Source: Acinetobacter sp. ANC 3903
Lineage (GTDB): Bacteria; Pseudomonadota; Gammaproteobacteria; Pseudomonadales; Moraxellaceae
Assembly (NCBI RefSeq): GCF_002135315.1
Contig: NZ_NEGA01000002.1
Coordinates: 124,001 to 188,000, forward strand
Length of the DNA stretch: 64,000 nucleotides
Reading direction: 5' to 3'
Position numbers and translations under genes: made by a program. Under the pieces are notes generated by a model that was not told the origin of the DNA, searched no databases, and saw nothing but the letters and a program-made list of their open reading frames with translations. This document shows positions 17,855 to 22,053 of this stretch, piece after piece (positions within the stretch are counted from its first letter, which is position 1; every line of letters begins with the position of its first letter).

Positions 17855-17882
17855 TCATTTTCGATTCATGGAGTATGAACCG

Positions 17883-19166
17883 ATGAATATTTTAGTTTTG
17901 GGTAATGGCGGTCGTGAACATGCATTGGCATGGAAAATCGCTCAGGATGAAAAAGTCGCTAAAGTTTTTGTTGCACCCGGTAATGCTGGAACAGCAACTG
18001 AAAATAAATGTGAAAACGTGAATTTAAGCATTTTAGACAATGCTGCGATTATCGATTTCGCAAAAAATAATGCAGTTGATTTAATCATTGTTGGTCCTGA
18101 AGCGCCGCTAGTAAACGGTGTTGTTGATGCCTGCCGTGCAGCTGGTGTAAAAGTTTGGGGCCCAACTCAATTTGCAGCACAGCTTGAAGGCTCTAAAGCT
18201 TTTGCCAAGCATTTCTTAAAACGCCACAACATTCCAACTGCTTTTTATGATGTATTTACCGAAGTCGATGCTGCCAAAGCATTTGTCGAGAAAAACGGTG
18301 CACCAATCGTCATCAAAGCAGATGGTCTTGCTGCGGGTAAAGGCGTAATTGTTGCCATGACCAATCAAGAAGCATTTGATGCGATTGATGACATGCTTGC
18401 AGGCAACAAATTTGGCGATGCTGGTTCTCGTGTTGTGATTGAAGAGTTCCTTGCCGGTGAAGAAGCGTCTTTCATTTGTATGATTGATGGCGACAATATC
18501 CTGCCAATGGCAACTTCTCAAGATCACAAACGCATTTTTGAAGGCGATCAAGGTCCAAATACCGGCGGCATGGGTGCATACTCTCCTGCTCCAGTTGTGA
18601 CTGCGGATGTATTCGAAAAAACCATGAATGAAGTGATGCGTCCAACCGTTGAAGGAATGAAAAAAGACGGTCACGTGTATACAGGTTTCTTGTATGCCGG
18701 TTTGATGATTGATGAACAAGGTCAGCCTAAAGTGATCGAGTTTAACTGTCGTTTTGGCGACCCTGAAACCCAACCCATCATGATGCGTCTGAAATCATCT
18801 TTGGTTGATCTGGTTGAAGCAGGTATTGCAGGTAACCTTCCTGCGGAAGCTGAATGGGATGAGCGCAAGACTGTAGGCATCGTGCTTGCATCTAAAGGCT
18901 ACCCTGAAACTTCAAGCAATGGTGATGTAATTTCAGGCCTAGATACTGAAATGACTGATGCCAAAGTTTTCCATGCTGGCACAAAAGCCAATGAAAAAGG
19001 CGAAATCGTAACCTCTGGTGGCCGCGTACTTTGTGTGACCGCACTGGGTAATACCATTGGTGAAGCACAAGCTAAAGCTTTAGAGCTTTGCCAAAAAGTA
19101 ACTTTTGATGGTGTTCAATACCGTAAAGATATTGGTTACCGTGCGATTGCGCGTGAAAATGCTTAA
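17883..19166 (+). CDS. purD: Phosphoribosylamine-glycine ligase (GAR synthetase)
   Basis: ATP-grasp enzyme joining glycine to phosphoribosylamine, the second step of purine synthesis. Family blocks are MNILVLGNGGREHALAWK at the N-terminus, KADGLAAGKGVIVA in the ATP-grasp domain, and GGMGAYSPAP and EFNCRFGDPETQ near the active site. An ATG at 17868 is also in frame, but a GGAG at 17870-17873 positioned before 17883 and the family N-terminus favour the second ATG, giving 427 aa. It pairs functionally with purH just upstream. A terminator follows. Confidence 0.97.
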   Translation: MNILVLGNGGREHALAWKIAQDEKVAKVFVAPGNAGTATENKCENVNLSILDNAAIIDFAKNNAVDLIIVGPEAPLVNGVVDACRAAGVKVWGPTQFAAQLEGSKAFAKHFLKRHNIPTAFYDVFTEVDAAKAFVEKNGAPIVIKADGLAAGKGVIVAMTNQEAFDAIDDMLAGNKFGDAGSRVVIEEFLAGEEASFICMIDGDNILPMATSQDHKRIFEGDQGPNTGGMGAYSPAPVVTADVFEKTMNEVMRPTVEGMKKDGHVYTGFLYAGLMIDEQGQPKVIEFNCRFGDPETQPIMMRLKSSLVDLVEAGIAGNLPAEAEWDERKTVGIVLASKGYPETSSNGDVISGLDTEMTDAKVFHAGTKANEKGEIVTSGGRVLCVTALGNTIGEAQAKALELCQKVTFDGVQYRKDIGYRAIARENA

Positions 19167-19191
19167 TTCTTTTAAAGAATAGATTAAGCCT

Positions 19192-19221
19192 AAAAAGCCC
19201 ACATTTTTGTGGGCTTTTTTA
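19192..19221 (+). terminator. Terminator of purD
   Basis: AAAAAGCCCACA / TGTGGGCTTTTTT hairpin with a T-rich loop and T-tract, 25 bp after the purD stop. Confidence 0.93.
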
Positions 19222-19366
19222 ATACCTTAGATTCTCAGATGAAGTGCAATAGAAATTAATTTAAGTATAATTTCAAGAAGTTGATATTTCACACCAAAAT
19301 CCTATTCAGCTGCACACCCTCCTTTAAATAGAGTTTAAGTACATGTTTTTAAATAACTAAAAAATC

Positions 19367-19394
19367 ATTTCGTATAAGGCGTATTAGATTAATT
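19367..19394 (+). repeat. dif-like XerC/XerD site, left
   Basis: XerC arm ATTTCGTATAA (19367-19377), 6-bp spacer GGCGTA, XerD arm TTAGATTAATT (19384-19394). The XerD arm differs only slightly from the general TTATGTTAAAT-type arm. Confidence 0.75.
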
Positions 19395-19404
19395 TTAGGA
19401 ATAC

Positions 19405-20289
19405 TTAAGATTTAGGTTTTGTTGCAATCCAACACAGTAAAGACCCCAAACATACTATTAAAGCGCCTTTCCAAAAACCTACTGTTAAATGTGTACTTAA
19501 AACCAATGCTGAAACTAATGCTGAAAATACAGGTATGAAGTAGGAGGCTGTAGCCAATAAAGTCACATTCCCATGCATAATTCCCACATTCCATGCCCCA
19601 TAGCCAATACCCATAGCAAATGCGGCTAATACCAAGTAAATGATAGAATCTAATTCAAAATAAGGAGATACATCGCCTGATAGAATCCATTTTATCCATA
19701 AAACAATAGACACCATAATAAAGAATAATGTAATCCCATTTTTACCATTAGCAGCTCTTGCAGTTAGTGTGCAATATGCAGCCCAGAGAAAAACACCTAA
19801 TAAAGCTAGACCATAACTAAATGGATTATCTTTAATATTAGACATCATATCTTTAAAGCTAAATCCTTCATCCCCACCAAGCACCAAACAAATTCCTATA
19901 ATTGATAAGCACACGCCAGGAATAATTAAGAAATTAGCTTTCTGCTTATTAAATATAATCGAGAAAAGTATAGTTACTGTAGGCCACAAATAATTAACCA
20001 TGCCTATCTCTATGGCTTGTTTACTATTTGTTGAATAGCCGATCGACAAAGAAAGACAAATTTCATAAGACACAAAGAGAATACTGCCCCCAATTAGGTA
20101 TTTAGAGGGGAAATCTTTCAGATTAGTCCAACCGAATGAAATTAGAAGAAAAATTGAGGCTAGTGAATATATTAAGGCGGCCCCACCAATTGGTCCAAAA
20201 TAATGACTGACTTCTTTGATTAGAGCGACAATTAAGCTCCACAAGAAAATGGCAGTAAGACCAATCAATGTAGCTTTTTTTGAGTTCAT
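19405..20289 (-). CDS. yddG: DMT-family transporter, YddG-like aromatic amino acid exporter
   Basis: A 294-aa inner-membrane protein with about ten hydrophobic helices in two EamA repeats. The opening (KKATLIGLTAIFLWSLIVALIKEVSH) and the internal block GMVNYLWPTVTILFSI resemble YddG, which exports aromatic amino acids and analogues. Substrate assignment is by resemblance only. The gene is AT-rich and sits alone between two dif-like sites, so it is probably an acquired cassette. Its promoter would have to lie in the 81 bp up to the right-hand site or be supplied from outside. Its 3' end nearly touches the left site. Confidence 0.8.
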   Translation of the reverse strand: MNSKKATLIGLTAIFLWSLIVALIKEVSHYFGPIGGAALIYSLASIFLLISFGWTNLKDFPSKYLIGGSILFVSYEICLSLSIGYSTNSKQAIEIGMVNYLWPTVTILFSIIFNKQKANFLIIPGVCLSIIGICLVLGGDEGFSFKDMMSNIKDNPFSYGLALLGVFLWAAYCTLTARAANGKNGITLFFIMVSIVLWIKWILSGDVSPYFELDSIIYLVLAAFAMGIGYGAWNVGIMHGNVTLLATASYFIPVFSALVSALVLSTHLTVGFWKGALIVCLGSLLCWIATKPKS

Positions 20290-20370
20290 TTCTCTTATTC
20301 ATGAATATAGGTGGGAGATATATTAAATAAAAAGACTATAAAAATATGATTTTTTTATTTGATTTTTTCT

Positions 20371-20398
20371 ATTTAGCATACTAGTGCTTATACGAAAT
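20371..20398 (-). repeat. dif-like XerC/XerD site, right (inverted)
   Basis: Read on the minus strand: XerC arm ATTTCGTATAA (20398-20388), spacer GCACTA, XerD arm GTATGCTAAAT (20381-20371). The XerC arm is identical to the left site; the XerD arm differs from TTATGTTAAAT at two positions. Confidence 0.72.
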
Positions 20399-21180
20399 AC
20401 ATTTAATAAAACCTTTGTTTTTAATATATTTAAATATTTTTTCGTCCTAAAAAACAGTAAAAAACTGGCCTGGAAACAAGTTTCTTTTTGATGAGCATTT
20501 TTGGCACGTATCGCTAATAACCGCTAATAACTTTGTTTAAAAAAATCATTTTAAGTTTTCGCTGACTTTTCAAAGTAGTTATTTCCTGAATAATTCACAA
20601 ACTTTTTGAAACAATATTTCGTATAAAAACGTGCTTCCCCCTCCTACCTTTATTATTTTCATTAACCAATTCACTATGTTCTTTTTATTCCGAATTTAAG
20701 CAACAAGACTTCCTAAACCTGAAGAAATAATATTAAAAATATGAAATTACTGCTTATCCCTTTTTCAGCTTTGTATTTTCTAAAATTATATAGGAACAAA
20801 ATTTTTTTAATTAGAAGTTTTACTCATTTCAATAAATTTAATCTATTGTTTTATGAGTTAATTTATAAAAACGTCTCACTTTATTATGCAAAATTAAGCT
20901 AAATATCAGATTTATAATCACTATTATGCATAAAAAAAAATTGTTATGATGTGTCCAATTTTTAGGAATAAGTCATCATGAAAATTGTTTGATTACAGCA
21001 ATTTGCTTTATTCAAACAAAAAACATCTCTCCATGATGCTACCGATCTCCAATTGCGTTGATGAATGAGACATTTTAAAGTGATCTGCATCAATCAGTTG
21101 ATCTGATTCAAGCTTGATTTAATCTCTCCAATGACATATTCGTAAATTTATCGCCAAATTAAATTTATTAGGACATATAC
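20399..21180. other. AT-rich gene-free region upstream of metQ
   Basis: About 780 bp with no convincing gene. Contents are a lone XerC-type arm at 20616-20626, a tandem duplicate of CGCTAATAAC at 20512-20531, a possible -10 box TATGAT at 20945-20950, and a four-codon frame (Met-Lys-Ile-Val-stop) at 20980-20994. The last 230 bp may be an untranslated leader of metQ. I could not match it to a known methionine riboswitch. Confidence 0.5.
20616..20626 (+). repeat. Orphan XerC-type half-site
   Basis: A third exact ATTTCGTATAA, 218 bp beyond the right module site. The following 6-bp spacer and 11-bp stretch (GCTTCCCCCTC) do not resemble a XerD arm, so it is a half-site or decayed site. Confidence 0.5.
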
Positions 21181-22053
21181 ATGAAAAAGCTCCTTGGTCT
21201 TGTTTTAGGTCTTTCAGTTGGCTTGTCTGGCTGTGGTAAACAAGAAGCACCTGCAAATGACGCAGCTCAAAATAAAGATTCTGCCGAAGTTCAAACCGTA
21301 ACCATGGCCTCTACAGGTTCGGATGCTGAAATCTGGCGTTACATTGCGACACTTCCAGAAACAAAAGCTGCTGGCATTAAACTTGAAGTGAAAAACTTCA
21401 CCGATTATGTGTCTATGAACACAGCCGTAGCCAATAAAGAAATTGATGTAAACGCATTTCAATCTTATGCCTATCTGGTTGCTTTCAACGAATCCAATAA
21501 AGATAAGATTGCTCCGCTTTCTACCACTTACCTTGAACCAATGGGTATTTACTCAAGTAAAGTGAAGAAACTGGATGAATTCAAAACCGGTGCAACCATT
21601 GCCATTCCTAACGATGGTGCCAATGAATCACGTGCATTATTGTTACTTCAATCCGCCGGTTTGGTAAAATTAAAACCGAGTTTTGACAATGTGAAAGGTA
21701 CACCTGCTGATATCGTTGAAAACAACAAAAAAATTGTGATTAAACCGATTCAGATGGCAACTGCTGTACGTGTTAAAGACGAAGTAGATGCGATTGTCTT
21801 GGGTAATACCCTGGCAATGGAAGGTGGCTTAAATGTACTGAAAGACTCTATTTACTATGAGCCAGTAGACCAAAGCACAAAAATGAATGTCAACATTCTT
21901 GCTGTTGCAGCTGATCGTCAAAATGACCCTGTACTGAAAAAAGTGGGCGCGCTTTACCACACAGAAGCAGTGAACAAATACGTTCAGGAAAAGTTTGGTG
22001 GTACTAAAGTTGACGTAAATAAACCGATTAGCTATCTCACTGAAGCAAAATAG
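21181..22053 (+). CDS. metQ: D-methionine ABC transporter substrate-binding lipoprotein
   Basis: NlpA-family lipoprotein that binds methionine in the periplasm and delivers it to MetNI. The lipoprotein signal MKKLLGLVLGLSVGLSGC places the lipidated cysteine at residue 18. Family blocks include FTDYVSMNTAVANKEIDVNAFQ and IAIPNDGANESRALLLLQSAGL. The length of 290 aa is normal. metN and metI follow on the same strand, but an intrinsic terminator separates metQ from them, which could give excess binding protein over the membrane complex. The long 5' region suggests regulated expression. Confidence 0.95.
   Translation: MKKLLGLVLGLSVGLSGCGKQEAPANDAAQNKDSAEVQTVTMASTGSDAEIWRYIATLPETKAAGIKLEVKNFTDYVSMNTAVANKEIDVNAFQSYAYLVAFNESNKDKIAPLSTTYLEPMGIYSSKVKKLDEFKTGATIAIPNDGANESRALLLLQSAGLVKLKPSFDNVKGTPADIVENNKKIVIKPIQMATAVRVKDEVDAIVLGNTLAMEGGLNVLKDSIYYEPVDQSTKMNVNILAVAADRQNDPVLKKVGALYHTEAVNKYVQEKFGGTKVDVNKPISYLTEAK

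Follow-up and report, generated by a model that had tools for sequence, protein, structure and literature searches.

A chromosomal D-type dif module with a yddG-type gene in an apparent cassette slot between purD and metQ of Acinetobacter

In a 64,000-bp stretch of the genome of Acinetobacter sp. ANC 3903 (here called the window; contig C12, positions 124001-188000, of genome G000, which comprises 3.31 Mb in 30 contigs), we found that a segment between purD and metQ is a chromosomal D-type dif module, that is, a module with the XerD arms of its two sites inside (Ambrose, Xiao and Hall, PMC13141974; all papers are cited from their accessible parts). We consider it probable (roughly 0.7) that this module occupies a long-lived purD-metQ slot, in which a plasmid fragment was captured and the cargo was then replaced several times, most likely by XerC/XerD. 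The features are listed in Table 1.

Table 1. Features of the purD-metQ slot and of the related module on contig C26. Positions refer to the window unless another contig is given.
Feature	Position	Strand	Remarks
purD, left border gene of the slot	17868..19166	+	named by the sequence-only reading and by eye
Left slot flank	19176..19366	+	common to G059 and G167; largely in G147; last part in G074, weakly in G086
Left-type dif-like site	19367..19394	+	XerC arm 19367-19377; 2 mismatches to pdif consensus
14-bp extension TTAGGAATACTTAA	19395..19408	+	directly 3' of left XerD arm, on the module side; overlaps yddG stop codon
yddG-type exporter gene, 294 aa, EamA/DMT family	19405..20289	-	intact; sole gene between the sites
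Right-type dif-like site	20371..20398	-	XerC arm 20388-20398; 3 mismatches to pdif consensus
End of plasmid C module	20399..20521	+	adjoins XerC arm of right site; decayed hairpin terminator (by eye)
Remaining right flank	20522..20754	+	common to G059, G167, G074 and G147 (175 genomes)
Third exact XerC-arm sequence, not counted as a site	20616..20626	+	XerD arm absent (9/11 mismatches)
metQ, right border gene of the slot	21181..22053	+	named by the sequence-only reading and by eye
C26 D module, TetR-like and HPP-family genes	L103:5946-7204 (G000:C26)		HPP by Pfam, other names by eye

The two sites are 28 bp long (11 + 6 + 11), close to the pdif consensus and inversely oriented, with internal XerD arms. 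The left site reads ATTTCGTATAA-GGCGTA-TTAGATTAATT, with a degenerate XerD arm, and the right site ATTTCGTATAA-GCACTA-GTATGCTAAAT. A preliminary interpretation made by a model from the letters of this DNA (the sequence-only reading) had described two 28-bp sites with identical XerC arms, 6-bp spacers and inward-facing XerD arms that closely bracket one AT-rich gene. Coordinates and orientation were confirmed, and the G+C content of the module is 33.2%, versus 42.0% for the window. At the same position as the left site, the closest relative of the window genome, G059 (Acinetobacter sp. ANC 4169; ffh DNA 97% identical, 175 genus genomes searched), has ATTTCGCATAA-GGTGTA-GTATGCTAATT.

Published XerD-arm variants are TTATGTTAATT and TTATGTTAAAT (PMC10132070), and two clusters of pdif spacers have been described (PMC6449649). 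Both variants (classes AATT and AAAT) and both spacer clusters are present in the module of the window, one at each end. Neither end is the main chromosomal dif site, which has the spacer TGTATA (PMC10132070) and not GGCGTA or GCACTA. Among 149 genomes searched, the TGTATA form was found in 13 of the 16 with listed positions, once in each except for G074, which has it twice.

The XerC arm alone is unremarkable, with 12 exact copies in the genome versus 9 for the reversed pattern; 8 of the 12 belong to two-armed sites (at most 3 mismatches) and 4 lie outside such sites. Two-armed sites of the form ATTTCGTATAA-N6-TTATGTTAATT with up to 3 mismatches occur 14 times in the genome versus 0 times for the reversed controls, and two of them lie here, 1 kb apart. 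In the genus, sites within 2 mismatches were found in 145 of 149 genomes, and the reversed pattern gave 7 matches in total. Thus, the numerous random XerC arms without XerD arms that the sequence-only reading had allowed for did not turn up, two-armed sites being far in excess of controls in genome and genus alike, and its interpretation of the segment as a chromosomal pdif module is supported, with the D type now specified. One exact copy of the XerC arm in the right flank (20616-20626) had been overlooked. G059 and G167 share it exactly, and G074 and G147 have altered forms of it; as a genuine site closing a C module it was rejected, because it has no XerD arm and is altered in the latter two genomes.

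The unremarkable count of XerC arms would suit a vertically inherited gene that happens to lie between two XerC-like words. Such a coincidence is scarcely credible given the excess of two-armed sites and the pairs of sites with other genes at the same locus in relatives. Moreover, near copies of yddG exist in just 4 of 149 genomes, in two of them (G000 and G059) at the purD-metQ locus, and chance is already contradicted by the slot comparison that follows.

We compared the purD-metQ interval in G000 and 16 relatives, picked for a close metQ, flank or ffh. Among these 17 genomes, five hold an inward-facing pair of sites and one a scar; eight lack a site, and three (G041, G097 and G113) were not classed, as purD is outside the compared stretch. 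The yddG module is found in G000 and G059. In G074, the slot holds a 193-aa transglutaminase-like gene (Transglut_core, E-value 2.9e-14), in G086 a 183-aa ORF for a membrane protein (membrane nature judged by eye), and in G147 a 6.1-kb island of five modules, with six sites alternating in orientation (D-C-D-C-D). The cargo of this island comprises a zinc-type alcohol dehydrogenase, an SDR, an HxlR-type regulator, a BOF-family protein, a LysR regulator, two YdcZ-like exporters and an Imm45-like protein (the names BOF, Imm45 and one of the two YdcZ come from Pfam, the rest from inspection by eye). In the scar of G167, no site was found within 6 mismatches, and the left flank is joined to a stub resembling the right XerC arm. 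No site within 5 mismatches was detected in G037, G081, G119, G082, G018, G131, G084 and G136, the last two having purD 3.6 kb from metQ.

Because the genes that lie between such sites at this locus are quite unlike in related species, the purD-metQ interval looks like a cassette slot, in which single-gene cassettes would have been swapped over evolutionary time. The yddG gene with both sites was shared only with the sister genome G059, so that vertical inheritance of gene and sites at this locus by all relatives, which the sequence-only reading had considered, was not what the compared genomes revealed. The slot belongs to a minority, since only 3 of 30 metQ loci (G000, G059 and G074) have the XerC arm within 1 mismatch in the 1.5 kb upstream; this set was kept apart from the 17 genomes, as 1.5 kb does not always reach purD. 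In G097, a D module for an ankyrin-repeat protein with inward-facing sites (L095:510-1580, G097:C13) lies about 3 kb before metQ, with purD outside the stretch.

The spacers differ among the occupants, on the left (GGCGTA, GGTGTA, CGTGTA, AGTGTA, ACTAAA) as well as on the right (GCACTA twice, TGGCCC, GTACTA, GCGCTA), and exchange between identical spacers was therefore not seen. We also scored the flanks in nine pairs of occupied slots with unlike cargo against shuffled sequences. Similarity ranged from 69% to 89% in the outer left 45 bp (63% in shuffles; z 1.5 to 6.4) and from 63% to 72% in the outer right 130 bp (60-62% in shuffles; z 1.4 to 4.7), the weakest outer comparisons being those with G086 (left z 1.5 to 3.6; right z 1.4 for G000-G086). 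The inner 130 bp were at shuffle level on both sides, z being -2.6 to 0.4 beyond the left site plus extension and -0.3 to 1.5 inward of the right site. The left flank (19176-19366) is absent in G037, G081 and G119. Positions 19191-19263 of the window are a short dispersed repeat found in many genomes of the genus, in several of them near contig ends.

Acinetobacter species readily take up DNA. Homologous recombination via the purD and metQ flanks after natural transformation, with the dif sites remaining passive on the chromosome, might therefore have moved whole intervals. G000 and G059 share 83% identity over the last 300 bp of purD and 98% over the first 300 bp of metQ, which suggests recombination near the slot. 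The presence of the slot is also discordant with ffh relatedness (G082, at 92%, is without it, and G147 and G074, both at 90%, have it), and the sites in G000 are degenerate. We nevertheless find this explanation unlikely, because similarity among the outer flanks extends as far as the XerC arm and drops to shuffle level inside, because the module on contig C26 (see below) corresponds to a plasmid module from site to site, because the alternating array of G147 is of the sort made by site-specific recombination, and because unlike cargo is found in two separate slots. Homologous recombination can spread variants, but would not readily produce new joints between flank and cargo at the sites.

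The second slot is near ffh. On contig C26, a D module is located between a cytochrome-assembly-like gene, which adjoins ffh, and a dus-like gene. Over 1,260 bp it shares 89.8% identity with a module of plasmid pYUSHP14-1, both limits of the match falling within 2 bp of the outer ends of the two sites. This match is the best direct sign that the chromosomal modules of this genome and plasmid modules may be the same movable units. We compared the second slot in the same genome and 13 relatives, with no dus gene found in the compared stretch, and the right border not set, in G059, G167, G086, G037, G147, G018 and G131. Inward-facing pairs are present in five (G000, G074, G082, G131 and G167); the slot contains a 190-aa ORF in G074, a 172-aa ORF with a weak right site in G082, four sites in G131 and weak sites in G167. 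G081 has the cargo of G000 (87.7% identical) with the right site alone remaining, G055 has one site and G086 one doubtful site, and no sites were found at this slot in G059, G037, G147, G018, G150 and G166. A third chromosomal D module of the window genome (L108:5069-5767, G000:C27) has inward-facing sites around a gene for a 195-aa protein, for which Pfam gave no match.

The right flank of the purD-metQ slot resembles plasmid DNA. Positions 20402-20520 match 34 plasmid records, all from Acinetobacter (best E-value 2e-17), and for 12 of these records we examined where the segment lies. Six of the 12 are complete or nearly complete small plasmids, in which it is found immediately next to the XerC arm of an AAAT-type pdif site (6 of 6 places); in the six further records, 5 of 8 places adjoin such a site. 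No site within 4 mismatches was found beside the segment in L111, in L183, where an annotated ISNCY transposase gene ends 28 bp before it, and at the second place of L193. At loci of the genus outside the slot, 8 of 11 segments have a site just before them (one of the AATT form) and 3 of 11 have none. According to these positions in plasmids and genus loci, the segment is usually the end of a plasmid C module. It includes a hairpin-like stretch that by eye looks intact in G074 and decayed in G000. An assignment as the replication end of a plasmid backbone was narrowed to the C-module end, as the segment is not beside rep in some plasmids.

With a plasmid C-module end as its right flank, the slot probably goes back to the capture of part of a dif-module plasmid. 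Other parts of the flanks were searched as well. A plasmid origin of positions 20540-20755 was rejected for want of any plasmid match, and for the left flank (19290-19366) it is not supported, with chance-level matches alone (E-values of about 2 or more among the matches listed).

The 294-aa product of the cargo gene scored 418.7 bits against the NCBIfam model NF008676 (aromatic amino acid DMT transporter YddG; cut-off 194), in line with its initial naming as a yddG-like exporter, and it belongs to the EamA family. The score against NF050091 was 92.8 bits, below the cut-off of 300. The protein is a probable exporter of amino acids or their analogues. Between G000 and G059, the gene has 18 synonymous (of 202.8) and 7 non-synonymous (of 679.2) differences, and the resulting dN/dS of 0.11 indicates purifying selection and residence since before the split of the two.

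YddG-type matches were found in 127 of 149 genomes, and besides G000 only G059 (98%), G068 (83%) and G075 (82%) reached at least 80%. In A. schindleri (G075) and G068, the gene is present without dif-like sites beside it. The DNA homology with these two genomes spans about 19405-20360, nearly the module interior, and then ends; by eye, the neighbors in A. schindleri are cytochrome bd oxidase-like genes. As the 82-83% protein identity to the schindleri-like genomes is about that of metQ (85-86%), yddG could be an old vertical gene of the lineage that was moved later.

Other modules occur in the same context, and the yddG module itself was not found elsewhere. A plasmid copy of it was rejected: the best plasmid YddG was less than 60% identical in 165 of 165 matching records, and no plasmid match to the 1032-bp segment spanned 80% of the region. 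Among the matches listed, an Acinetobacter plasmid YddG is 53.9% identical to that of the window. A YddG gene between pdif sites is not unique, since plasmid CP033752.1 has a YddG-type gene between an inward-facing left-type and right-type pair. There, it is part of a four-gene unit with MFS, M24 peptidase and GlxA-family genes, whereas the module of the window has one gene. The gene set of pAbe229-15 resembles that of CP033752.1 (PMC6863613).

The following course of events would account for the slot. An ancestor would have taken up part of a dif-module plasmid. This fragment would have extended beyond the D module, and the C-module end (20399-20521) would be a remnant of it. The fragment would have left behind an inverted pair of pdif sites, to be used as a docking place. 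A plasmid and the chromosome would then have recombined into a cointegrate at one of the sites, where the spacers match, and the cointegrate would have been resolved at the other, so that the module was swapped. In this way, host XerC/XerD would have replaced the cargo between the sites several times, in different species. We infer XerCD as the agent of the swaps, and the order of events, from what is seen in the sequence: the sites, their inverted geometry, the varied cargo at the same position, the plasmid-like right flank and the site-to-site plasmid match of the C26 module. XerC-dependent plasmid cointegrates at sites with closely related spacers have been reported (PMC11705084), and replacement of single modules by cointegrate formation and resolution has been proposed (PMC13141974).

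The tight flanking of the gene might also suggest a self-mobile inverted pair, with XerCD excising and inserting the single module as a unit. This is very improbable. Inverted sites with the spacers GGCGTA and GCACTA would allow inversion at most, no deletion between inverted pairs was observed on plasmids (PMC11705084), and inverse sites are described as precluding the excision of single modules (PMC13141974). Self-excision of the module was accordingly rejected because of its inverted sites and unlike spacers, and movement would need a partner replicon.

Recombination by XerC/XerD at the sites of the window is predicted to be weak, as the left XerD arm starts with TTAG and not TTAT; a deviation in ATAA-spacer-TTAT accompanies the failing xrs107 (PMC11705084). 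With such degenerate sites the module may be inert now, and its present mobility is doubtful. It has diverged together with the sister species, its gene is under purifying selection and its sites are decayed, so that it is probably a settled passenger by now. The mobility proposed by the sequence-only reading is hence upheld as evolutionary history, by the varied cargo in the slot, and not as current activity, in view of the decayed sites.

D-type modules of Acinetobacter plasmids (PMC13141974, PMC6449649) share with the module of the window the inverse 11-6-11 sites, the internal XerD arms, the single gene, the pair of XerD-arm variants and the pair of spacer clusters. The module of the window differs from them by its place on the chromosome, in an orthologous slot and beside plasmid C-module remains, and by its decayed sites. 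The chromosomal location alone is not new, since chromosomal dif modules were published in 2019 (PMC6449649) and a dif module island in 2026 (PMC12907356); non-resistance cargo, too, is in print (PMC6449649, PMC12907356), so that the module does not by itself widen the range of locations, as the sequence-only reading had suggested it would. Acinetobacter sp. M10 (PMC12907356) and A. indicus SGAir0564 (terC dif, PMC6449649) likewise have chromosomal dif modules, and M10 has rows of modules as in G147 and a module with an amino-acid exporter (LysE family). These are single strains with modules mostly about 99% identical to plasmid copies, whereas the modules described here are diverged and differ between species at fixed slots. 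In the open literature, mostly titles and abstracts, we found no paper on orthologous chromosomal dif slots or on YddG in a dif module. The kind of element is known; the turnover of cargo between species in orthologous slots, the plasmid-like flank and the class-specific extension described below were not found in print.

Integrons exchange small promiscuous gene cassettes at a fixed place by means of a tyrosine recombinase. The slot resembles them in its small cassettes, the tyrosine recombinase and the fixed place. Unlike for integrons, no dedicated integrase, folded attC or common promoter is known for the slot, which has double-strand dif-like sites and would rely on host XerCD. Single modules with inverted sites cannot excise, and published models explain their movement by cointegrate formation and resolution. 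Orthologous slots with unlike cargo are what this model would leave on a chromosome, and they would document the replacement of single modules in nature outside plasmids. They would suggest that the dif system edits chromosomes too, over species-level time.

The 14-bp extension next to the left site is not restricted to the window. Flank comparisons had shown that AATT-type sites have sequence in common past the XerD arm. We gathered sites using only the XerC arm and bases 1-9 of the XerD arm (at most 2 mismatches), split them by the base that separates AATT (left-type) from AAAT (right-type), and discarded similar neighbors. The consensus of the extension at left-type sites is TTAGRAAANCTTAA. 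TTAG directly follows the XerD arm in 41 of 50 AATT sites versus 0 of 39 AAAT sites, in 13 of 14 versus 0 of 18 in four plasmids new to the analysis, and in 57 of 67 versus 0 of 59 overall. At least 9 of the 13 informative bases of TTAGRAAANCTTAA are present in 59 of 67 AATT sites, in 0 of 59 AAAT sites, and in 0.5% of 8,000 random 14-mers from those plasmids. Information falls past base 14 (0.04 bit at base 15, at most 0.41 bit, at base 18) from up to 1.66 bit within the box. Main dif sites fall within the AAAT class, 8 of 39 sites of which have the spacer TGTATA.

No report of the extension was found in the open literature, including a search for the letters AATTTTAG with Acinetobacter and XerD, nor in the accessible parts of PMC13141974, PMC10132070, PMC9455709 and PMC11705084. 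According to the last of these, no accessory sequences were found near xrs38 and xrs66, which have spacers of the other class, T/CCGCCA (PMC11705084). The extension sharply distinguishes left-type from right-type sites and could be tested as a missing piece of the mechanism. As a tentative suggestion, which we regard as possible though somewhat unlikely, chromosomes might hold fixed docking slots of an integron-like cassette system without integrase. Its D modules would have a 42-bp composite end (XerC-6-XerD plus the box TTAGRAAANCTTAA) and a plain end, and the box might act as an accessory site, perhaps bound by OrfX, that gives polarity, so that left end is swapped with left end.

The site nearest to the end of orfX is of the AATT type, with the XerC arm toward orfX, in 8 of the 8 cases reached (1 of 9 stretches was too short). 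The orfX gene was named from annotation beside rep, or by eye in L101, and the orfX-side left-type sites came from L101, L109, L110, L181, L182, L186 and L187. The distance from the end of orfX to the XerC side of the site is 139-152 bp in seven cases and 310 bp in one, and the extension score at these sites is 9 to 12 in seven cases and 4 in one. L101 itself (G000:C21, 12.5 kb) is a small plasmid-like contig of the window genome with Rep-type, OrfX-type and DNA-methyltransferase-like genes (by eye). It also has a D module with a SMEK-domain protein, and is a possible exchange partner in the same cell.
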